DNA of 64,000 bases from Miltoncostaea marina (GTDB lineage: Bacteria > Actinomycetota > Thermoleophilia > Miltoncostaeales > Miltoncostaeaceae), in the NCBI RefSeq assembly GCF_018141525.1, contig NZ_CP064655.1, positions 1 through 64,000 on the forward strand. The letters are read 5' to 3'. Each line of letters opens with the position of its first letter. The first letter of the stretch is position 1. Below, piece by piece: positions 2,880 to 39,468 of the stretch. The translations under genes were made by a program, and so were the position numbers. Below the pieces are notes generated by a model that saw only the letters and a program-made list of their open reading frames with translations, was not told where the DNA came from and did not search any database.

Positions 2880-4004
2880 GGCCACGGCCGGCCGCCCCGC
2901 CTGGGCGGCGCGGCGCCTGGAGGTCGCCGACCTCCGCCCCTGGCGCCGGGCGGCGCTCGACCTCCCCGCCGGGCTGGTGCTGCTGACCGGCCCGAACGGC
3001 GCCGGCAAGACGTCGCTCGTGGAGGCGATCGTGCTCGGCTGCCTGGGCGTCTCGCCGCGCACGGCGCGCGAGGCCGAGGCCGTGCGACGCGGCGCGCCGG
3101 CGCTGCACGTGGCCCTGGAGCTCGACGGCCCGGCCGGGCTGCACCGGCGCGAGATCGGCTTCGCGGCCGGCCGCGGCCGGCGGCTGCGCCTGGACGGCGA
3201 GCCCGTCCGCCGGCTGGCGGACTGGCGGGCCCGCGCGGTGCTGGTCTTCCTGCCCGACGAGCTGCGCGCGGTGAAGGGGCCGCCCGCCGCCCGCCGGCGC
3301 GCGCTGGACCGGGTGCTCGAGGCCGCCAGCCCGGGGTTCGCCGACGACCTGGCCGGCTACCAGCACGCGCTCGCGCAGCGCAACGCCCTGCTGCGCCGGG
3401 TGCGGGCCGGCGAGGCCTCGCGCGCCTCGCTGCCCGCCTGGGAGGCCCCGATGGCCCGGCTCGGTGCCCGGGTGGCGGCGGCCCGCCGCGCCGGGTGGCG
3501 GCGCTCGCCGGCCCGTTCGCCGGCTGGCTGGAGCGGCTCGGCGGCGGCGACGCCGGGCTCCTGCGCCTCGAGGCCTCGCCCGCCGAGCTGGCCGAGGTGC
3601 CCGACGACGACCTCGAGGCGGCCCTGGCCGGGTCGCTGGCCGCGCGCCGCGAGCGCGAGGTCGCCGCCGCGGGCACCTTCGCCGGCCCGCACCGCGACGA
3701 CCTGCTGATCGGGGCGGGACCCGCGGACCTGCGCCGCGAGGGCAGCCAGGGCGAGCAGCGCACGGCGGCGCTGGCCCTGCTGCTGGCGGCCCGCGACCAC
3801 CTGCGCGAGCGCGCCGCCCGGCCGATCCTGCTGCTGGACGACGTGCTGAGCGAGCTCGACCCGGTGCGCCGGCGGCTGCTGCTGGAGGCGGTGCGGGACG
3901 GCGGCCAGACGATCGTGACCACCGCCGACCCGGCGGCGGCCGACGCGCTCGACCAGCCCCCGGACGCCCTGGTGCGCATCGAGGCGGGGACCGTCCGTGG
4001 CTGA
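2836..4004 (+). pseudogene. recF: RecF recombination/repair ATPase, frameshifted
   Basis: RecF is an SMC-like ATPase that helps load RecA at gaps and restarts replication. The first part carries Walker A TGPNGAGKTS. The second part, in a different frame, carries the RecF signature SQGEQRTAAL, Walker B ILLLDDVLSELD and the end of the protein. The frame breaks at the GGG run at 3493-3495: one extra G restores a continuous reading (RRAGVAALAGPF) through to 4004. Either a base was lost in the assembly or the gene is disrupted. The start is also unclear: the only canonical in-frame start is ATG 2836, 44 bases inside dnaN, while family alignment suggests a start near CTG 2917, which would give about 362 residues, a normal RecF length. 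Confidence 0.85.
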
Positions 4005-4562: not shown

Positions 4563-4579
4563 TCCTCGAATCCCCGTAG

Positions 4580-7009
<2,430 letters not shown>

Positions 7010-17734: not shown

Positions 17735-18987
17735 GCGACCGCCCGCGCGTGGTGGTCACCGGCCTGGGGATGGTCACCTCCCTCGGCATCGGCTGGCGCG
17801 AGAACTGGGAGGCCGCGATCGCCGGGCGCAGCGGCGCCGGCCCGATCACGTGCTACGACCCGGTCGACACGCCCACGAAGATCGCCTGCGAGGTGACCGG
17901 CTTCGACCCGGTCGACTTCATGGACCGCAAGGTGGCCCGCCGCATGGACCGCTTCGCCCACCTGGCGGTGGCCGCGGGGCGGCTCGCCCTGGAGGACGCG
18001 GGGCTCGCCATCTCGTCCACAGCGGCCCCGCGCGCGGGTGCGGTGGTGGGCAGCGGCATCGGCGGCCTGCACACGTTCGTGCAGCAGACGCTGCTCGCCG
18101 AGGAGCGCGGCGCCGACCGGGTGTCGCCGTTCTTCATCCCGGCCGTGATCGCCAACATGGCCGCCGCGCAGGTGTCGATGGAGCTCGGCCTGCAGGGGCC
18201 GCTGTCGTGCGTCACCACCGCGTGCGCCTCGGGCAACCACGCGCTCGGCGATGCCACCGACGCCATCCGCGCCGGGCGCGCCGACGTGATGCTCGCGGGC
18301 GGCACCGAGGCCAGCGTCACCCGGGTGGGCATCGCCGCCTTCAACGCCATGCGGGCGCTCTCCACGCGCAACGACGACCCCGAGGGGGCCAGCCGGCCGT
18401 TCGACCGCGCCCGCGACGGCTTCGTGATGGGCGAGGCCGGCGCGATCGTCGTGCTCGAGCGACTCGAGCACGCGCTGGAGCGCGGCGCCGAGCCGATCTG
18501 CGAGGTGCTCGGCTACGGCCTCACCGGCGACGCCCACCACCTCACCGAGCCGGACCCCACCGGCAGGGCGCCCGCCGCGGCGGTCGCGATGGCGCTCGCC
18601 GACGCCGGCGTCGAGCCGTCGCAGGTCGACTACGTCAACGCGCACGCCACCTCGACGCCGGTGGGCGACACCAGCGAGATCCGGGCGCTGAAGCTCGCCC
18701 TGGGCGAGGACGTCGCCCGGCGGGTGATGGTCTCCTCGACGAAGTCGATGCACGGCCACTGCCTGGGCGCGGCCGGCGGGGTCGAGGGCGCGCTGACCGC
18801 CCTCGTGCTGCGCGAGGGGATCATCCCGCCGACGATCAACCTCGAGGACCTCGACCCCGACTGCGCGGGCGTCGACCACGTCGCCAACGAGGCCCGCCGC
18901 GCCGACGTGCGCGTCGCCGTGTCGAGCGCGTTCGGCTTCGGCGGCCACAACGCGATCATGGTGCTCGGCCGCGTGGAGGACCGGTAG
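17731..18987 (+). CDS. fabF: 3-oxoacyl-ACP synthase II FabF
   Basis: Elongating condensing enzyme of fatty-acid synthesis. The 418-residue KAS II has the Cys-His-His triad C165 (TTACASGNH), H305 (NAHATSTPVGD) and H341 (STKSMHGHCLGAAGG). The start is the ATG that overlaps the fabG stop. Length is normal for FabF. A phosphatase-like reading frame follows immediately, before accD. Confidence 0.96.
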   Translation: MSDRPRVVVTGLGMVTSLGIGWRENWEAAIAGRSGAGPITCYDPVDTPTKIACEVTGFDPVDFMDRKVARRMDRFAHLAVAAGRLALEDAGLAISSTAAPRAGAVVGSGIGGLHTFVQQTLLAEERGADRVSPFFIPAVIANMAAAQVSMELGLQGPLSCVTTACASGNHALGDATDAIRAGRADVMLAGGTEASVTRVGIAAFNAMRALSTRNDDPEGASRPFDRARDGFVMGEAGAIVVLERLEHALERGAEPICEVLGYGLTGDAHHLTEPDPTGRAPAAAVAMALADAGVEPSQVDYVNAHATSTPVGDTSEIRALKLALGEDVARRVMVSSTKSMHGHCLGAAGGVEGALTALVLREGIIPPTINLEDLDPDCAGVDHVANEARRADVRVAVSSAFGFGGHNAIMVLGRVEDR

Positions 18988-19007
18988 GCGCAGCGCCCCC
19001 AGGGCGG

Positions 19008-19550
19008 CTGCCCGGCTGGCGGGCGGTCCTCAACCGCGCGAGCACGCGCGTCTACGGGCCGCGCCGCGGCCTGGAGGGCTTCTCGTGGATCCCCGGCGAG
19101 CGGATCGCGATCGGCGCGGTCCCGGTGGGCGGCGCGGTCGCCCGGCTGCCCGAGCTCGGCGTGACCCACGTGGTCAACTGCCGCGCCCAGCTGCAGACCC
19201 GCATCTCGCAGGACCTCTGGGCCGAGCGGCGCGTGTTCGGCGCCGACCGGGTGGTGCACGCGCCCATGTGGGACCACGGGCGCCCCCAGCCGCCGGCGCT
19301 CTGGGCGCCCGCCGCCCGCTTCGCCGCCGCCGTGCTCGACGAGGAGCCCACCTCCGGCGTCCTCATCCACTGCCAGCAGGGCCGGCGCCGGTCGGCGATG
19401 GTCACCTACGCCGTGCTGCGGCTGCGCGGCCGCGACCCCGACGAGGCCGAGCGGATGATCCTCGAGGGCCGCACGCCGGCCAGCATCGTCCCGGCCTACC
19501 GTGAGAGCGTCGAGCGGTGGCTCGTCGCCGACGCCGGCCCCCTGACATAA
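19008..19550 (+). CDS. Tyrosine/dual-specificity phosphatase-like protein, start unresolved
   Basis: The C-terminal half has the CX5R active site of protein tyrosine or dual-specificity phosphatases: HCQQGRRRSAM, with cysteine and arginine six apart. The aspartate of HAPMWDHG may be the general acid. The product may act on phosphoproteins or phospho-sugars/lipids; substrate is unknown. No ATG, GTG or TTG lies between the fabF stop and GFSWIPGERIAIG, which looks like the true start of the fold. The first canonical start (GTG near 19122) would delete that segment. CTG 19008 is given as one possible start. It lies inside the fab-acc operon, an unusual place for a phosphatase. Confidence 0.72.
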   Translation: MPGWRAVLNRASTRVYGPRRGLEGFSWIPGERIAIGAVPVGGAVARLPELGVTHVVNCRAQLQTRISQDLWAERRVFGADRVVHAPMWDHGRPQPPALWAPAARFAAAVLDEEPTSGVLIHCQQGRRRSAMVTYAVLRLRGRDPDEAERMILEGRTPASIVPAYRESVERWLVADAGPLT

Positions 19551-32076: not shown

Positions 32077-32880
32077 TCAGTCGCCCAGCCGGCGCACGAC
32101 GTGCAGCGCGCCGGGCGGCCCCGGCACCTCGATGTCGGCGGCCTCGCGCACCGCAGGGGGCACCTCGCCGCTCGCCACGGCCACGCCCAGCGCCACCTCG
32201 AGCGCCCCCTCCGACCGCATCGCCCGCAGGGCGCGCCAGGCGTCGGCGTCGGTGCGGTCGTCGCCGATGTAGACGGCCGCCCTGGCCCCGCTGCCGCGCA
32301 GCAGGGCGCGCACCGCGGTGCCCTTGTCGACCGCCACCGGCGGCCGCACCTCGAGCACCTCGCGGCCGGGCGTGGGCACCAGGCCGCGGTCGAGCGCCTC
32401 GGAGGCCACCTGCGCCAGCAGCAGCCGGGCCGCCTCGGGGTCGCGCGCGCCGCGCGCGTGGACGCTCAGCGTGGCGCCCTTCGGCTCCATGCGCAGGTCG
32501 CCCGGCGCGAGCCGCTCGGCCGGCCAGGCGGCGACGAACTCCGCGATCGCCTCGAGGTGCTCGGCGACGCCCTCGGCGAGCTCGGGCTCCGCGCCGGGGC
32601 GGTGCAGCTCCATGCCGTGGTTGCCGGCGTAGGCGCAGTCCTCCATGCCGACGATCCGCTCCAGGTCGGCGAGGCCGCGGCCGCTGACGAATCCGAGCAG
32701 CAGCGCGCGGTCGCGCAGGCGGGCGAGCGCCTCCCGCGCGCCGTCGGGCAGCCGCGCGAGCTCGGGCCGGGCCACGATGGGCGCGAGGGTGCCGTCCAGG
32801 TCGCAGAGGATCGCGGCCCGGTCCAGCCGCTCGCGGACCGGGGACAGCGCCTCCTCCAGGCGGGCATCGGGGGCGGCCAC
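32077..32880 (-). CDS. otsB: Trehalose-6-phosphate phosphatase
   Basis: HAD-type enzyme hydrolysing trehalose 6-phosphate to trehalose, a compatible solute. The 267-residue product has CDLDGTLAP (D27, D29), NHGMEL in YAGNHGMELHRP, the lysine of VDKGTAV, and YIGDDRTDADAW. GTG 32880 is chosen because TAGGGT ends eight bases upstream and the family aligns from there. No otsA lies nearby, so the partner synthase must be elsewhere. Confidence 0.92.
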   Translation of the reverse strand: MAAPDARLEEALSPVRERLDRAAILCDLDGTLAPIVARPELARLPDGAREALARLRDRALLLGFVSGRGLADLERIVGMEDCAYAGNHGMELHRPGAEPELAEGVAEHLEAIAEFVAAWPAERLAPGDLRMEPKGATLSVHARGARDPEAARLLLAQVASEALDRGLVPTPGREVLEVRPPVAVDKGTAVRALLRGSGARAAVYIGDDRTDADAWRALRAMRSEGALEVALGVAVASGEVPPAVREAADIEVPGPPGALHVVRRLGD

Positions 32881-32923: not shown

Positions 32924-33271
32924 CTGCCGGCCCTCGCCACGATCGGCCTCGCCGCGGGCCTGTTCGCCTCGCTGTTCGGCGTGGGCGGCGGCATCGTGAT
33001 GGTGCCGCTGCTCATCGGCCTGCTCGCCTACGACGCGAAGGCGGCGACGGCGACCTCGCTCGCGGCCATCATCTTCACGGCGACCGTCGGCGCGGCCACC
33101 CACGGCGCGCTCGGCAACGTCCACTGGGGCACCGCGGCGCTCGTCGGCGTCCCCGCCATGGCCGGGCTGCTCGGCGGACTCGCCCTCAAGGAGCGCCTCT
33201 CGAGCCGCGCGCTGACGTACGCCTTCGCGGCGCTGCTGCTCGCCGTCGCCGTGCGGCTGGCGGTCGGCTGA
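32924..33271 (+). CDS. Half-length TauE/SafE membrane protein, first of a pair
   Basis: TauE/SafE proteins carry sulfite/organosulfonate-type anions and usually contain two repeats of about 120 residues. This product (115 residues from CTG 32924) is one such repeat, with LFGVGGGIVMVPLL near its start, SLAAIIFTATVG, and three or four hydrophobic segments. No ATG, GTG or TTG precedes the conserved part unless the gene runs far into otsB on the opposite strand, so CTG is proposed. The second half follows two bases after the stop. Confidence 0.72.
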   Translation: MPALATIGLAAGLFASLFGVGGGIVMVPLLIGLLAYDAKAATATSLAAIIFTATVGAATHGALGNVHWGTAALVGVPAMAGLLGGLALKERLSSRALTYAFAALLLAVAVRLAVG

Positions 33272-33273
33272 CC

Positions 33274-33648
33274 GTGCTGGACGCCGCCCTGGTCGTGCTG
33301 CTCGGCGCCGCCGCGGGGGCCCTCGCGGGCCTCTTCGGCGTGGGCGGCGGCATCATCTTCGTCCCCACGCTCACGCTGGTGCTCGGCCTGGGGCAGCTCG
33401 AGGCCGAGGCCACCTCCCTGCTCGCGATCGTGCCGGTGGCGGTGCTGGGGTCGTGGCGCCAAACGCGCGCGGGCACCGTGCGCTGGCGCGACGCGACCGC
33501 CATCGGCCTCGTGTCGGTCGGCACGGCGGTGGCCGGCGCGCTCATCGCCGACGCCGCGCCCGAGCGCGCCCTGCGGGTCGGGTTCGCGCTCGTGCTCGCG
33601 GGCACCGCCGTGCAGCTCGCGCTGCGCGCGCGGCGCTCCGGCGACTGA
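33274..33648 (+). CDS. Half-length TauE/SafE membrane protein, second of a pair
   Basis: The 124-residue product begins a new repeat with LFGVGGGIIFVPTL, then SLLAIVPVAVLGSWRQ, and ends RARRSGD after three or four membrane segments. Together with the preceding gene it makes up one normal two-repeat TauE/SafE transporter, so the two probably assemble as a heterodimer. GTG 33274 lies two bases after the first gene's stop. No frameshift is needed to explain the split, as the stop and new start are clean. Confidence 0.82.
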   Translation: MLDAALVVLLGAAAGALAGLFGVGGGIIFVPTLTLVLGLGQLEAEATSLLAIVPVAVLGSWRQTRAGTVRWRDATAIGLVSVGTAVAGALIADAAPERALRVGFALVLAGTAVQLALRARRSGD

Positions 33649-33656
33649 CCGGCGAA

Positions 33657-33669
33657 TTGTAAAAATGCG
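33657..33669 (+). promoter_or_regulatory. AT-rich promoter-like patch
   Basis: TTGTAAAAATG is exceptional in this GC-rich DNA. Read forward, TAAAAT could be a -10 box for the secreted protein at 33726 with a leader of about 50 bases; a second, weaker option is TAGGAA six bases before its GTG. Confidence 0.35.
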
Positions 33670-33725
33670 CTGGAAGGGCCGCGACCCCCTCCCCTCGTCG
33701 GGGGGCGCGGTGGTAGGAAGAGCAG

Positions 33726-34889
33726 GTGCCCGTCCGGACGCATCCCGCGCGCCGCTGGCCGCTCGCGCTCGTGCTCGCCCTCGTCGCGGCCCTCGCCGCG
33801 GCCCCCTCGGCGAGCGCGCTCGAGATCGGCGCGGTCGTGGCCGGCGTCGAGGTCGGCGTGTCCGTCGGCGAGCCGGAGGCCCCGATCGTGGCCGTGAGCG
33901 CGGCCCCGTCGCCCGCCCCCGCCGCCGCCCAGCCGGCCGAGCCCCCCGCCGTCCCGGCTCCCGCCGCCCCGGCGGCCGCCGGGGCGGCGCCGCAGCCCGC
34001 GGCGCCCTCGCCGGCGCCGGCCGCCGTCCCCGACGCCGCGCGCACCCCCGCGCCGGCGCGGCGGCCGTCGCCGGCACCGCTGCTCCGGGCGCCCGCGCCC
34101 TCGTCGCCGACCCCGGCCGCGTCCGGGCCGGCACCGGCCTCGCCGGCGCCGCGGGTCGTGCGGCCGGTGCTCGAGCCGGTGCTGGGGCTGGCCGACGCCG
34201 CGGCGCGACCCGTCACGGCGCTCGTGGCGCCGGTCCTGGGGGTCCCCGCGGGCGGCGCGCCGGATGGCCCCGGGCTGGCGGCGCTCACGCGCCCGCTGCT
34301 CGGGCTGCTCGACACGACCCTCTCGCCGGCGCTGCGCATCGTCGACGTCGTCCCGCCGGTCGCCGGCGTCCCCCTCGCGCCCTCCGCCTCGTCCCCGCCG
34401 GCCCCGGGCGCGCCCGGGGCCGGCCCCGGGCCGGCCGCCGCGGCGCCGAGCGGGCCCGCCGCCGACCCGGCCGCCGCCGGCGCCGCGGCCGGTCCCTCGT
34501 GGGCCCCCTCGTCCGACGCGCCCGCGGGCGCCGCCCCGGCCCCCGAAGCCCCAGGCCTCCTCGGCGCGACCGCCGGGCCCGCCGCCCGGGCGGCCGTCGC
34601 CGCGACCGCGCCGCCCGGCGCGACCGCGGCCGCGCCCGGGGGCGCCGTGCGCGCCGAGGCGGCCTCAGGCGCGCCCGCCCCGCCGCCACGTCCCGCGCCC
34701 GCCCCCGCGGCCGCCCTGGCCCAGGCCGGCGCCGCGCCCGGCGCCTCCACAGGTCTGCTCCTGCTCCTCGCCGGCGTGCTGGCGGCCGTGCTGCCGCCGC
34801 GGCCGCCCGCGGGCCGCTCCGTGCGGCGCCCGCCGACCGGGCCCTGGCCCGCGGCAGCGCCGTCCCGCGCCTTCGAACGACCGGGCTAG
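33726..34889 (+). CDS. Secreted Pro/Ala-rich protein with C-terminal membrane anchor
   Basis: No known family is recognised. The 387-residue product has a signal peptide (cleavage near ASALE, about residue 31), long Pro-Ala-Ser low-complexity stretches, a central part of helical motifs with a PVLGL theme (RPVLEPVLGLADAA, RPLLGLLDTTLSPALR), and a C-terminal hydrophobic segment (GLLLLLAGVLAAVLPP) followed by Arg-rich residues. This fits a surface protein anchored by its tail. The next gene encodes a secreted repeat protein with a related PVGTVTGLVG theme, so the two may form a surface pair. Confidence 0.75.
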   Translation: MPVRTHPARRWPLALVLALVAALAAAPSASALEIGAVVAGVEVGVSVGEPEAPIVAVSAAPSPAPAAAQPAEPPAVPAPAAPAAAGAAPQPAAPSPAPAAVPDAARTPAPARRPSPAPLLRAPAPSSPTPAASGPAPASPAPRVVRPVLEPVLGLADAAARPVTALVAPVLGVPAGGAPDGPGLAALTRPLLGLLDTTLSPALRIVDVVPPVAGVPLAPSASSPPAPGAPGAGPGPAAAAPSGPAADPAAAGAAAGPSWAPSSDAPAGAAPAPEAPGLLGATAGPAARAAVAATAPPGATAAAPGGAVRAEAASGAPAPPPRPAPAPAAALAQAGAAPGASTGLLLLLAGVLAAVLPPRPPAGRSVRRPPTGPWPAAAPSRAFERPG

Positions 34890-34972
34890 CCGCCCCGGGC
34901 GCCGTCCGCCGACCGGCGGGCCGCGCCCCCTGCGAGCTCTGTCCGTTCGTTCATCGAAGGAGAACCCATCAC

Positions 34973-36592
34973 ATGCGACGCCATCTCGTGGCGCTCGGGG
35001 TCAGCGCGTTCTGCCTGACCCTGGCACCCGCCGTGGCCATGGCCGAGGGCGATGCCCCCGCGCCGCCGGCCCCGGCGGTCAGCCAGAGCAACACCGCCGC
35101 CGCCCCCGCGGCGGCCGGCAACTCCAACAGCACGGCGCAGTCGGCCGGCGGCGCCTCGTCGCAGTCGGCGACGACGGCGCAGGTCCTGCCGATCGCGGTC
35201 GCCCCGGCGGTCGCCCCGCAGGTGCTGCCGGTCAACGTCAACCTGCCCGTCCGGGTGCTCAGCCCCGGCGACAACGGCTCGGTCGACCAGTCCAACACCG
35301 CCGAGGCGCCCGCCACGGCGGCCAACGGCAACGAGACGTCCCAGGCGGCGGCCGGCGGCGCGAAGAAGGGCGCCCCGGCGTCCTCGCAGTCGGCGACGAC
35401 GGCGCAAATCCTGCCGATCGCGGCCGCCCCGGCGGTCGCCCCGCAGGTGCTCCCGGTCAACGTCAACGCGCCGGTGCGCGTGGCGAGCCCGGGTGACAAC
35501 GGCGACGTGACCCAGTCGAACACGGCCGCGGCGCCCGCCGAGGCCGGCAACAGCAACACCACCTCGCAGGGCGCCGGCGGCGCCGGCTCGCAGTCGGCGA
35601 CGACGGCGCAGGTGCTGCCGATCGCGGTCGCCCCGGCGGTCGCCCCGCAGGTGCTGCCGGTCAACGTCAACCTGCCCGTCCGGGTGCTCAGCCCCGGCGA
35701 CAACGGCTCGGTCGACCAGTCCAACACCGCCGAGGCCCCGGCCACCGCGGTGAACGACAACGCGACCCGCCAGGGCGCCGGCGCCAAGGGCGGCGCGGCG
35801 GGCGGCTCGCAGTCGGCGACGACCGCGCAGGTGCTGCCGGTCGCGCTCGCCCCGGCGATCGCGCCGCAGGTGCTGCCGCTCAACGTCAACGCGCCGATCG
35901 GCCTCGTCGACCAGCTGCCGGCCCTGCCGGTGGACCCCTTCGCGGCGCTGGCCGACCCGGTCGGCACCGTGACCGGCCTCGTCGGCACCCTTCCGCTGCC
36001 GGCCCTGCCGGTGGACCCGCTCGCGGTCCTCGCCGACCCGGTCGGGACGGTCACCGGGACGCTGGCGGACCCGGTCGGCACCGTGACCGGCCTGGCCGCC
36101 GGCCTGCCGCTGCCGGCCCTGCCGGCGCTGCCGGTCGACCCGTTCGCGGTCCTCGCCGACCCGGTCGGCACCGTGACGGGCCTCGTCGGCACGGCCACCG
36201 GCCTGGCCGCCGGCCTGCCGCTGCCGGCCCTGCCGGCGCTGCCGGTCGACCCGTTCGCGGTCCTCGCCGACCCGGTCGGCACCGTGACGGGCCTCGTCGG
36301 CACGGCCACCGGCCTGGCCGCCGGCCTGCCGCTGCCGGCCCTGCCGGCGCTGCCGGTCGACCCGTTCGCGGTCCTCGCCGACCCGGTCGGCACCGTGACG
36401 GGCCTCGTCGGCACGGCCACCGGCCTGGCCGCCGGCCTGCCGCTGCCGGCCCTGCCGGCGCTGCCGGTCGACCCGTTCGCGGTCCTCGCCGACCCGGTCG
36501 GCACGGTCGCGGGCATCCTCGCGGACCCGGTCGGCACGGTGACCGGCGTCGTCGGGAGCCTCCCGGTCGGCCTGCCGGTCGGCCTGATCTAG
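34973..36592 (+). CDS. Secreted repeat protein, possible chaplin/rodlin-like surface fibre
   Basis: The 539-residue product has a signal peptide (cleavage after AMA, residue 24). Residues about 40-300 hold four modules of 68-75 residues, each with QSATTAQVLP, APQVLPVNVN and then SPGDNG-x-V-x-QSNTA ending in Asn/Gln/Thr-rich sequence. The C-terminal part is built of LPALPVDPFAVLADPVGTVTG units, including three exact 37-residue copies (378-488) and a partial fourth. Beta-prone, Asn/Gln-rich modules without cysteine recall chaplins, rodlins or curlin repeats, but this is only resemblance. ATG 34973 follows AAGGAG. No LPXTG is present. Confidence 0.8.
   Translation: MRRHLVALGVSAFCLTLAPAVAMAEGDAPAPPAPAVSQSNTAAAPAAAGNSNSTAQSAGGASSQSATTAQVLPIAVAPAVAPQVLPVNVNLPVRVLSPGDNGSVDQSNTAEAPATAANGNETSQAAAGGAKKGAPASSQSATTAQILPIAAAPAVAPQVLPVNVNAPVRVASPGDNGDVTQSNTAAAPAEAGNSNTTSQGAGGAGSQSATTAQVLPIAVAPAVAPQVLPVNVNLPVRVLSPGDNGSVDQSNTAEAPATAVNDNATRQGAGAKGGAAGGSQSATTAQVLPVALAPAIAPQVLPLNVNAPIGLVDQLPALPVDPFAALADPVGTVTGLVGTLPLPALPVDPLAVLADPVGTVTGTLADPVGTVTGLAAGLPLPALPALPVDPFAVLADPVGTVTGLVGTATGLAAGLPLPALPALPVDPFAVLADPVGTVTGLVGTATGLAAGLPLPALPALPVDPFAVLADPVGTVTGLVGTATGLAAGLPLPALPALPVDPFAVLADPVGTVAGILADPVGTVTGVVGSLPVGLPVGLI
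36104..36500 (+). repeat. Exact 111-bp tandem repeat inside the secreted repeat gene
   Basis: Copies at 36104-36214, 36215-36325 and 36326-36436 are identical base for base, and a partial fourth copy starts at 36437. Such DNA identity implies recent duplication or ongoing homogenisation, so copy number may differ between strains and may be collapsed in short-read assemblies. Confidence 0.95.
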
Positions 36593-36608
36593 CCACCACG
36601 TCCGGCAT

Positions 36609-36638
36609 CCGCCGCCGGCCCACCGGGGCCGGCGGCGG
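36609..36638. terminator. Strong bidirectional hairpin
   Basis: A perfect 13-base GC stem (36609-36621 with 36626-36638) around the loop ACCG lies between the convergent repeat-protein and Tim44-domain genes. It probably ends transcription from both sides. Confidence 0.7.
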
Positions 36639-36650
36639 TGTCGCCGGGGG

Positions 36651-38012
36651 TCAGGCGGCCGGACCGTCCCCCCGCGGCGGCGCCTCGCGCACCGCGGCGA
36701 TCCGCCAGGGCGCGTCGTCCGGCCCGTCCAGCGCGAGCGTCCACGTGCCGTCGAAGCGCACCCGCCGGTCGCGCGAGCCGGCGATCAGGGTGAGCGTGGC
36801 GCGATCCTCGATGTAGCGGACGCCCTCGATCCGCATCCGCACCGCGACCGTGGGCGGGACCGCGTCGGCGTCGACGTCGACCAGCGTCACCGACAGCACC
36901 TCGGGGGCGCGCACCACCAGGCGTCCGTCCGGCGCGGGCGCCGTGGGGTGGAGCAGGTCGGTGAGCAGGCCCGGCCGGGCGATGCGCGCGAAGGCGGCGT
37001 CGTCGCCGTCCACCGCCTCCGCCCATGCCGCGACGCCGCGCCGGACCGTGGCCTCGATCACGTCCGGGTCGAACCGCTGGTCGACGAGCGACAGGTCGCG
37101 CGCCCTCGCGAGGGCCGAGCGCGCGCCCTCGTCGTCGAGGTCCGCGTGCCCGACCCCGGCCGGCACGGCGTCCGCCACGGCGGCGGCGACCCGCTCGCGG
37201 TCGGTCATGCGGCGGTCCTCGCTGGGGTCGGCCTCGATCGGCGCGGCGAGGTGGTGCTCGCCCTCGGCGTCCTGCTCGATCGACAGCAGCACCCAGCGGC
37301 CGTCGCGCCGGCCGAGCGTCCAGTACTCCCGGAGGTGGGTCTCGCCGGCGGGGTTCCCGGTGTGGGGGATGCGCCGGCCGGCCCGGTCGACCACCACGTC
37401 GTCGAGCTCGGCCGACACGCGCACGACGACCCGGTCCTCGGCCTGGCCCGCGCGGTTGGTGATCCCGACGTACTCCACCTCGTGCTCGCGCACGCCGACC
37501 CTGTTGCGCCAGCCCTTCGCGGCGAAGTCCTCCAGGCGCAGGCGCCACTCGGCCATCAGGTCCGCGCCCACCATCGCCGCCAGCGCGTCGCGGTCGTCTC
37601 GGTCCCACGCGGCCTGGACCGCGGCGAACAGGGCGGCGGCCTCCGCCCGCACGCGGTCGGCGGCGAAGACGGGATCGTCCTCGGCCGCCACGAGCGAGCG
37701 GCGCTCGACGTCCTCGCGGCGCGCGCGGCGCCGCGCCGCGGTGGCGCGGTCGCGGGTGCGCGCGTAGGCCCGGCTCCAGGTCTTCGTGCGGCGCTCCTGC
37801 ACCGCGCCCACCAGCAGCAGCACCGCGAACGCCCCGCCGGCCACCAGGTAGCCGCCGAGCCCGAACTCCGCTCCGCCGCCCGAGCCGCCACCACCGCCGC
37901 CGAAGCCGCCACCACCACCACCACCGAAGCCGCCGCTGCCGCCGCCGGCGGCGCCGAGCGCGGCCGGCGCGGACAGCGCCAGGGTCAGCAGGGCCGCGAG
38001 CGGGGCGCGCAG
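36651..38012 (-). CDS. Secreted/membrane Tim44-like domain protein, probable CTG start
   Basis: The protein (about 453 residues) has a signal-like N-terminus (RAPLAALLTLALSAPAALG), a striking Gly-only stretch (GGFGGGGGGGFGGGG), one membrane segment (GGYLVAGGAFAVLLLVGA), a basic linker and then two similar soluble halves. The first carries LEDFAAKGWRNRV and REHEVEYVGITN, typical of bacterial Tim44-like domains. Role unknown. No ATG, GTG or TTG lies between the nuoN stop and the signal sequence; CTG 38012, five bases after the nuoN stop, is the best start. An ATG/GTG-type alternative at 38126 would overlap nuoN by about 110 bases. It is probably a 3' member of the nuo transcript. Confidence 0.82.
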   Translation of the reverse strand: MRAPLAALLTLALSAPAALGAAGGGSGGFGGGGGGGFGGGGGGSGGGAEFGLGGYLVAGGAFAVLLLVGAVQERRTKTWSRAYARTRDRATAARRRARREDVERRSLVAAEDDPVFAADRVRAEAAALFAAVQAAWDRDDRDALAAMVGADLMAEWRLRLEDFAAKGWRNRVGVREHEVEYVGITNRAGQAEDRVVVRVSAELDDVVVDRAGRRIPHTGNPAGETHLREYWTLGRRDGRWVLLSIEQDAEGEHHLAAPIEADPSEDRRMTDRERVAAAVADAVPAGVGHADLDDEGARSALARARDLSLVDQRFDPDVIEATVRRGVAAWAEAVDGDDAAFARIARPGLLTDLLHPTAPAPDGRLVVRAPEVLSVTLVDVDADAVPPTVAVRMRIEGVRYIEDRATLTLIAGSRDRRVRFDGTWTLALDGPDDAPWRIAAVREAPPRGDGPAA

Positions 38013-38016
38013 CCCG

Positions 38017-39468
38017 CTACGGGGCGAGCAGGGCCTCCGCGGCGCCACGGCAGGCGTCCAGGACCGGCGAAGCGAGCAGGGTGAGCGCGATGACCGCGAC
38101 CGCCGAGCCGACTGTGGCCAGGCCAACCGGCCCCGGCACGGCGAACGTCCGGCGCGCGGCCCCGTCGAGGGGCGGCGCCCAGGTCACCCAGACCACCCGC
38201 AGGTAGTAGCCGAGGCTGATCATGCTGCCGACGGCGCCGACGATCGCCAGCCAGGTCAGGTCGGCCTCCACGGCCGAGCCGAACAGCAGGAACTTGCCCA
38301 CGAACCCGGACAGCGGCGGGAAGCCGGCCAGCGAGAGCATGGCCACGGTCATCACCACGCCCAGCACGGGACGGGCGCGGCCGTAGCCGGTGAGCGCCGC
38401 CACCGTGTCGCCGTCCTCCACCTCGCGCTCCCGGATGATGACCACGGCGAAGGCCGCGAGGGTCATGGCCGCGTACGCGAGCAGGTAGTAGAGGGTGGCC
38501 TCGGCGCCGGCGATGCCGCCCGTGGCGACGCCGATCAGCAGGTAGCCGGCCTGGGCGATGCTCGAGTAGGCGAGCAGGCGCTTCATGTTCGACTGCACGA
38601 GCGCCGCGATGTTGCCGACCGCCATGCTCGCCACGGCGACGACCGCGATCACGACCGACCAGTCGTCCTGCAGGTCGGGCATCACGCCCGAGAAGACGCG
38701 CAGGAAGGCCGCCAGGGCCGCGGCCTTGACCGCGGTCGACATGAAGGCGGTGACGGTCGTCGGCGCGCCCTCGTAGACGTCGGGCGTCCACATGTGGAAC
38801 GGCACGGCGGAGGCCTTGAACGCGAGGCCCGCGGCGATCAGCACCATCGCCGCCAGCACCAGCGGCTCGCCGGTGAACGAGGTCCCCTCGAGCTCGCGGC
38901 CGATGTCGGCGAGCCGGATCGAGCCGGTGGCGCCGAACAGCAGGGTGAGCCCGTAGAGCAGGATCGCCGCCCCGACGCTGCCGACGATGAGGTACTTGAG
39001 GCCGCTCTCCAGCGAGCGCTCGCGCCACACCTCGAGCGCGCAGAGCACGTACAGGGCCACCGAGAGGATCTCGATGCCCAGGAAGATCATGATCAGGTCG
39101 CCCGCGCCGGCCACGAGCATCATGCCGGTGGCCGAGATCAGGATCAGGCCGACGTACTCCCCGCGCCGGTCCACTGCGGCCGGCTCGCGCCAGGCGAGCA
39201 GGATCGTGACGGCCGCGGCCGCCAGGAAGAGGATGTTGAGCAGCAGGCTGAAGCGGTCGGCCCGCAGTCCGCCGCCGAGCGAGTCCTGGCGCTCGCCCCA
39301 CAGCAGCAGCGACATGACGATCGCCGCGGTGATGCCGGCCATGCCGACGAGCGCGGGGCCGTGGCGGCGCGCGAGGCGACCGGGCCACAGTCCGGCGCCG
39401 AGGGCCAGCGTGGCCGCGCCCGCGGTGATCATGACCGGGGTCGCCGCGACGACGTTCAGCGCGCTCAG
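38017..39468 (-). CDS. nuoN: NADH-quinone oxidoreductase subunit N, probable CTG start
   Basis: Antiporter-like proton-pumping subunit of the membrane arm of complex I. The product has about 14 membrane helices. Conserved elements include FKASAVPFHMWTPDVYEG, NMKRLLAYSSIAQAGY and FPPLSGFVGK. CTG 39468 overlaps the nuoM stop as CTGA, exactly parallel to the ATGA and GTGA overlaps elsewhere in the operon, and gives 483 residues. ATG 39432 gives 471 but leaves a 32-base gap to nuoM's stop and trims the first helix region. Confidence 0.94.
   Translation of the reverse strand: MSALNVVAATPVMITAGAATLALGAGLWPGRLARRHGPALVGMAGITAAIVMSLLLWGERQDSLGGGLRADRFSLLLNILFLAAAAVTILLAWREPAAVDRRGEYVGLILISATGMMLVAGAGDLIMIFLGIEILSVALYVLCALEVWRERSLESGLKYLIVGSVGAAILLYGLTLLFGATGSIRLADIGRELEGTSFTGEPLVLAAMVLIAAGLAFKASAVPFHMWTPDVYEGAPTTVTAFMSTAVKAAALAAFLRVFSGVMPDLQDDWSVVIAVVAVASMAVGNIAALVQSNMKRLLAYSSIAQAGYLLIGVATGGIAGAEATLYYLLAYAAMTLAAFAVVIIREREVEDGDTVAALTGYGRARPVLGVVMTVAMLSLAGFPPLSGFVGKFLLFGSAVEADLTWLAIVGAVGSMISLGYYLRVVWVTWAPPLDGAARRTFAVPGPVGLATVGSAVAVIALTLLASPVLDACRGAAEALLAP

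Follow-up and report, generated by a model that had tools for sequence, protein, structure and literature searches.

Does this very GC-rich bacterial genome truly hold conserved genes with no canonical start codon (ATG, GTG or TTG) and, if so, at which codons would their translation begin? For the 64,000-nucleotide stretch of DNA analysed here (the window), the original prediction claimed several conserved genes with no such codon at the expected place. This was borne out for gyrB, nuoN, a phosphatase-like gene and the first half of a TauE/SafE exporter, so that four of the five genes named there stand; the fifth, a Tim44-domain gene, is ordinary as judged from its sequence.

The cases fall into different kinds: in gyrB and bioY, ATC follows a strong Shine-Dalgarno sequence, and nuoN and the phosphatase-like gene overlap the stop codon of the upstream gene. 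We consider it probable that in this lineage some conserved genes, though a minority, are truly devoid of ATG, GTG and TTG starts and that other codons initiate through the ordinary fMet-tRNA (anticodon CAU) in two settings. In the first, a strong Shine-Dalgarno sequence just ahead of AUC would direct initiation (gyrB and bioY). In the second, the ribosome ending the upstream gene would re-initiate at a codon overlapping its stop or close after it (nuoN, the phosphatase-like gene and probably hemC), the codon going with the stop: CUG with UGA in nuoN, and GUA or AUA with UAG or UAA in the phosphatase-like gene. What the sequences show directly is that canonical codons are absent, that the position or register is conserved, and that gyrB and bioY keep their Shine-Dalgarno sequence. 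The unusual codons would be decoded as fMet, reinitiation would be the route at the overlaps, and IF3 may keep expression down, as in Streptomyces sigR.

Genomes and gene finding

The genome of this window (G000) was compared with three others of its genus (G001, G002 and G003). The search for homologues covered 31 genomes from its genus, family and class; for the phosphatase-like gene, it took in 42 genomes of the family. A codon-usage gene finder called 439 genes in 464 kb of G000 and 363 in 400 kb of G001, and a gene was flagged when no canonical codon was present from -20 to +10 codons about its coding boundary; such raw flags include gene-finder errors. An ortholog survey with extended ends was left out of the counts because its alignments entered the overlapping upstream gene.

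Proposed ATC starts behind a conserved Shine-Dalgarno sequence

4580..4585, + strand: AGGAGG, Shine-Dalgarno sequence of gyrB
4592..7009, + strand: gyrB (Pfam gyrase B domains), ATC start, with an in-frame TAG at 4577-4579
L069:9100-9738 (G000:C1:253100): bioY (Pfam BioY), ATC start

In G000, there is no ATG, GTG or TTG between the in-frame TAG at 4577 and the conserved coding region of gyrB, as had been predicted, and the first canonical codon is ATG 4688, 32 codons past ATC 4592. The arrangement AGGAGG, 6 nt, ATC precedes gyrB in all four genus genomes. A gyrB motif was located in 22 of the 30 gyrB loci given: four are from the genus, 17 have a canonical codon within a printed stretch of 27 codons, and the remaining one, G008, has none there. 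A nearby canonical start is excluded only in G000 and G001, since G002 and G003 carry a GTG nine codons past the ATC. Among 80 distant gyrB loci used as a control, the motif was found in 27, and all of these have a canonical codon in the 60 codons upstream. A further gyrB-like gene of G001, more distant, is found on a different contig (G001:C2:426169-427074).

For bioY, outside the window, all four genus genomes have GGAGG and, 4-5 nt further on, ATC; the 8 other loci printed have ATG. In G001 and G003, a GTG is found 10-11 codons upstream of the ATC.

Translation might instead begin at canonical codons further inside these genes, the conserved upstream region being untranslated. We regard this as unlikely; in gyrB of G000 it would cost 31 residues. 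It is weighed further below against hemC and the phosphatase-like gene.

Starts of this sort have precedents. According to the accessible text of one study, infC starts with ATT in E. coli, its Streptomyces counterpart starts with ATC, and IF3 represses Streptomyces sigR, whose GTC start is to the authors' knowledge the first on record (PMC5472188). As in infC (PMC5472188, as far as accessible), an ATH start is proposed here in an essential gene; unlike there, the AUC genes would be gyrB and bioY, and infC itself has TTG in G000. The likeness to sigR, as described in the same accessible text, is an NTC start in an actinobacterial gene, kept across species, with a strong ribosome-binding site (AGGAGGTG) in the case of sigR (PMC5472188). 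A non-canonical start behind a strong ribosome-binding site, as in these systems, is seen in gyrB (AGGAGG, 6 nt, ATC) and bioY (GGAGG, 4/5 nt, ATC). The start of sigR was established by experiment, according to that text, whereas the starts here are proposed from comparison only and concern other genes: gyrB, bioY, hemC, nuoN and the phosphatase-like gene (PMC5472188). A full-text search of the open-licence literature returned no paper on gyrB with an ATC start codon.

Proposed starts overlapping the stop codon of the upstream gene

38017..39468, - strand: nuoN, with CTG start at 39468-39466 over the nuoM stop TGA at 39467-39465
18975..18979, + strand: GGAGG in the closing part of fabF, with 4 nt between it and GTA
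18984..18987, + strand: GTAG, proposed phosphatase start GTA over the fabF stop TAG (18985-18987)
18984..19550, + strand: dual-specificity-phosphatase-like gene (Pfam DSPc, E 9.8e-5, 22.6 bits)

The nuoM stop TGA is preceded by C, so that the -4 overlap reads CTGA. The opening codons of nuoN are CTG AGC GCG CTG AAC, and no canonical codon follows until an ATG 12 codons past CTG 39468, which agrees with the original prediction that nuoN lacks a canonical start. The start column holds CTG in G000, G005 and G014, GTG in G001, and ATG in G002 and G003. G005 has a GTG six codons after its CTG, and G008 has a different overlap with a GTG slightly upstream.

The score of 22.6 bits for DSPc (PF00782) is below the curated cut-off of 33.5, so we call the second gene phosphatase-like only. 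It had been placed at about 19008 without a canonical start. The lack of a canonical codon nearby holds, the first one downstream being GTG 19125, 47 codons past GTA 18984; the position does not, since the frame is kept from the fabF overlap at 18984, 24 nt further upstream. A match was found in 40 family genomes, and 34 junctions were examined (19 at first, then 15 more). In all 34, the phosphatase frame is in the -4 register to the fabF stop. In the first 19 junctions, the linker separating the overlap codon from a conserved tyrosine had ten lengths between 45 and 105 nt, all multiples of 3. This constant phase with varying length implies that the linker is translated.

The overlap codon was ATG in 4 of the 34 junctions, GTG in 7, TTG in 1, CTG followed by ATG in 9, CTG alone in 1, GTA in 7 and ATA in 5. 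Thus 21/34 had ATG, GTG, TTG or CTG-ATG, 1/34 had CTG, and 12/34 had GTA or ATA (GTA in G000). For six of these 12 genomes (G000, G001, G002, G003, G007 and G014), no canonical codon was present before the tyrosine. In G001 and G007, the sole near-cognate codon among the first ten is the overlap ATA or GTA.

These results bear on the possibility of internal starts. Downstream canonical codons do exist, 8-19 codons on in the other 6 of the 12 GTA/ATA genomes, as internal initiation would need. Against it, an internal start in G000 would cost 47 codons including the conserved tyrosine block, and the linker varies in length by multiples of 3 only.

Alternatively, the phosphatase-like protein and NuoN could be made as fusions through -1 frameshifting where the upstream gene ends. 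The -4 register corresponds to the -1 frame and is conserved, as this would demand. We nevertheless consider such fusions very improbable: a canonical start is present at 21/34 phosphatase junctions, which points to independent initiation as the usual mode, and no conserved slippery sequence was seen by eye in the printed junctions. The frame of hemC relative to the upstream stop also varies, as described below.

Independent initiation at the overlap codon remains our reading of these junctions. More specifically, we lean slightly towards the view that ribosomes of this family initiate at GUA or AUA overlapping UAG or UAA (NTAR -4 overlaps) and that the start codon tracks the stop, NTG going with TGA and NTA with TAG or TAA. 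No description of an NTAR -4 start-stop signal was found in the open-licence literature as far as its text was accessible, and a full-text search of that literature returned no paper on a GUA start codon in bacteria.

Two possible refinements were rejected. In the first 19 junctions, GGAGG appeared to compensate for GTA or ATA (9/12 non-canonical vs 1/7 canonical), but this was lost with all 34 junctions, where GGAGG near the overlap was not significantly commoner with non-canonical codons (9/13 vs 9/21, p = 0.17). NTAG as a general start signal was ruled out because TAG junctions in general had no preference for the -4 register in G000, G001, G006 and G025.

Coupling of termination and reinitiation at -4 overlaps is described for ATGA or GTGA in the accessible part of one source (PMC10666635). 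The genes here resemble those pairs (PMC10666635, as far as accessible) in the 4-nt overlap of start and stop and in the conserved register, seen in the phosphatase-like gene (34/34) and in nuoN of G000 and its relatives; they differ in the overlaps themselves, which are CTGA in nuoN and GTAG, GTAA, ATAG and ATAA in the phosphatase-like gene. The overlaps may work like such pairs, yet they are not such pairs as described. A search for CTGA with translational coupling in the open-licence literature gave matches that look unrelated from the text accessible, and a system of reinitiation at non-canonical codons described in the accessible part of another source is eukaryotic (PMC4648390).

Genes outside the window

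L069:343-1230 (G000:C1:244343): hemC (Pfam Porphobil_deam), GTC at the conserved column
near 336252: FAD-dependent oxidoreductase (glpD-like), CTG in CTGA, single-genome case
near 402556: glucose-6-phosphate dehydrogenase, CTG behind a Shine-Dalgarno sequence, single-genome case
near 240045: ABC ATPase, GTA in GTAG, single-genome case
L332:13158-14219 (G025, other family): RecF/SMC-like gene, CTG in a CTGA overlap

In hemC of G000, an in-frame TAG lies four codons before GTC, the next canonical codon is 60 codons downstream, and the Porphobil_deam domain starts at residue 7. An internal start would cost those 60 codons including the ATRxSPLA motif. A hemC motif was located in 14/30 loci, 12 of them in the family, where the column holds GTC in 6 genomes, GTG in 2, ATG in 1 and ATC in 1, two lacking a clear assignment. 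The ATC belongs to G004, which has a TTG two codons further. Near the GTC of G002 and G009, there is no CTG or ATH codon that could take its place. The frame of hemC and its distance to the upstream stop vary among genomes, which argues against a frameshift.

The proposed codon, GTC, is the codon of sigR as given in the accessible text, and unlike sigR with its strong ribosome-binding site, hemC has no evident Shine-Dalgarno sequence in G000 (PMC5472188). No paper on hemC with a noncanonical start codon was returned by a full-text search of the open-licence literature.

Another flagged gene of G000, at 173884, was dropped because a GTG there gives a plausible start. In G025, CTGA overlaps without canonical codons were also found, for example before the RecF/SMC-like gene and an RmlD-like gene.

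Start codons lost to sequencing or assembly errors would give the same appearance, and an error might lie behind a single-genome case, the CTG genes among them. For the conserved cases, four separate genus genomes agree (gyrB, bioY and the phosphatase-like gene) and the frames are intact, so that we regard errors as an extremely improbable explanation.

Frequency in the window and in other genomes

The original prediction held that such genes were more than usually dense in the window, which was not upheld. Raw flags were raised for 32/439 genes in 464 kb of G000 and 29/363 in 400 kb of G001, and they were not denser in the window (4/61 genes) than in the adjacent 400 kb (28/378; Fisher p = 1.0). 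For genes of at least 100 amino acids, the raw rates were 29/398 (7.3%) in G000, 25/338 (7.4%) in G001 of the same genus, 12/254 (4.7%) in G006 of the same family, and 36/374 (9.6%) in G025 of another family. The raw rates in G000 thus resemble those of the adjacent 400 kb and of the three comparison genomes.

Of the genes that lack a canonical codon, 5/113 in G000, 3/92 in G001, 0/52 in G006 and 1/87 in G025 have CTG or ATH at Shine-Dalgarno spacing, with no significant enrichment in the genus (8/205 vs 1/139, p = 0.09). Codon usage alone predicts about three cases among the 16 such genes of G000, so the count of near-cognate codons by itself proves nothing.

The unusual starts could be real but merely tolerated, a class-wide product of drift in GC-rich genomes dense in overlaps, with no regulatory role. 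On this we are almost evenly divided, leaning slightly against. The similar raw flag rates in the comparison genomes, one of them from another family, and the CTGA overlaps without canonical codons in G025 are as expected from drift. The Shine-Dalgarno sequence with ATC kept genus-wide in gyrB and bioY, and GTC kept across genera in hemC, argue against it. Tolerated drift is compatible with our preferred explanation, initiation at non-canonical codons by the ordinary initiator, in all except control by IF3.

Changes of start codon are on record among close relatives. The accessible text of one survey reports AUG, GUG and UUG starts switching to CUG or AUU, very rarely (ancestral AUG to CUG 2/61,358, to AUU 1), and its start-switch records, as far as accessible, hold no AUC, GUC or NTA starts of the kind proposed here (PMC5622118). 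Non-canonical starts would be a known kind found in new genes; GTA and ATA on TAG or TAA stops would be the unusual and new part.

Callers limited to ATG, GTG and TTG would begin gyrB 32, nuoN 12 and the phosphatase-like gene 47 codons after the proposed starts, as the original prediction implied in saying that they would truncate such genes. If our explanation is correct, they would mis-start conserved genes such as gyrB, nuoN and hemC in this lineage, and -4 gene overlaps would extend beyond TGA stops. Homologues with ATG, GTG, TTG, CTG, ATC, GTC, GTA and ATA at one column would then form a natural test set for the evolution of start codons and could probe how far IF3 tolerates mismatches.

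Initiation machinery

A survey of tRNA genes gave 47 Rfam hits in G000. ARAGORN was run on 45 loci, three of them without result; four hits, at 1834331, 1834431, 575079 and 1508123, are outside the typed set. One typed tRNA (L322) looks like an initiator by eye, with anticodon CAU and a GGG/CCC anticodon stem typical of initiators. An odd initiator tRNA was looked for among the typed tRNAs and not found, the sole initiator-like one having CAU. Loss of IF3 was also ruled out: IF3_C was found in 30/31 genomes, the miss being G016, which is 80% complete. With an ordinary CAU initiator and IF3 present, the unusual codons would require the standard initiator to pair with a mismatch. ARAGORN also reported a tRNA-Ala (cgc) at 3388-3479, absent from the Rfam tRNA hits and probably spurious.

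The TauE/SafE and Tim44-domain genes

32878..32880, - strand: likely GTG start of otsB (Pfam Trehalose_PPase), divergent from the first TauE/SafE half
32924..33271, + strand: TauE/SafE half 1 (Pfam), CTG 32924 favoured as start
33274..33648, + strand: TauE/SafE half 2 (Pfam), canonical GTG present
36651..38048, - strand: Tim44-domain gene (Pfam), GTG start at 38048

The claim that the first TauE/SafE half has no canonical start at 32924 was confirmed in both G000 and G001. In G000, its frame has no ATG, GTG or TTG between GTG 32789 (antisense, in otsB) and GTG 32981, which lies in the conserved GVGGG motif. From codon 32942 on, all five codons changed between the two genomes are synonymous; the six codons at 32924-32941, like the 15 that precede them, are ambiguous. 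The start column is shared with G001 only, and it is CTG in both, for which reason CTG 32924 is our best guess for the start; ATC 32942 or an upstream codon may also serve. As it diverges from otsB, this half has no upstream gene after which ribosomes could re-initiate. The exporter at 32924-33648 is split between two neighbouring genes of half size, which share one open frame in G010, G011 and G014.

The divergent otsB has TAGGGT at 32894-32889, 8 nt upstream of its GTG. It looks leaderless (TANNNT, 8 nt, GTG or ATG), by eye also in G001, G011 and G016.

For the Tim44-domain gene, the original prediction of a missing start at CTG 38012 had overlooked GTG 38048, which is in frame, open and 12 codons upstream. 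Reading from it gives VAPRRPCSPRSG and then the hydrophobic LRAPLAALLTLALSAPAALG, which by eye is a normal signal peptide. In six relatives (L026-L031), an ATG or GTG is present 7-14 codons ahead of the aligned stretch. A neighbouring gene at 34985-36592 encodes a long repetitive protein with tandem repeats of the DPFAVLADPVGTVTGLVGTATG type.
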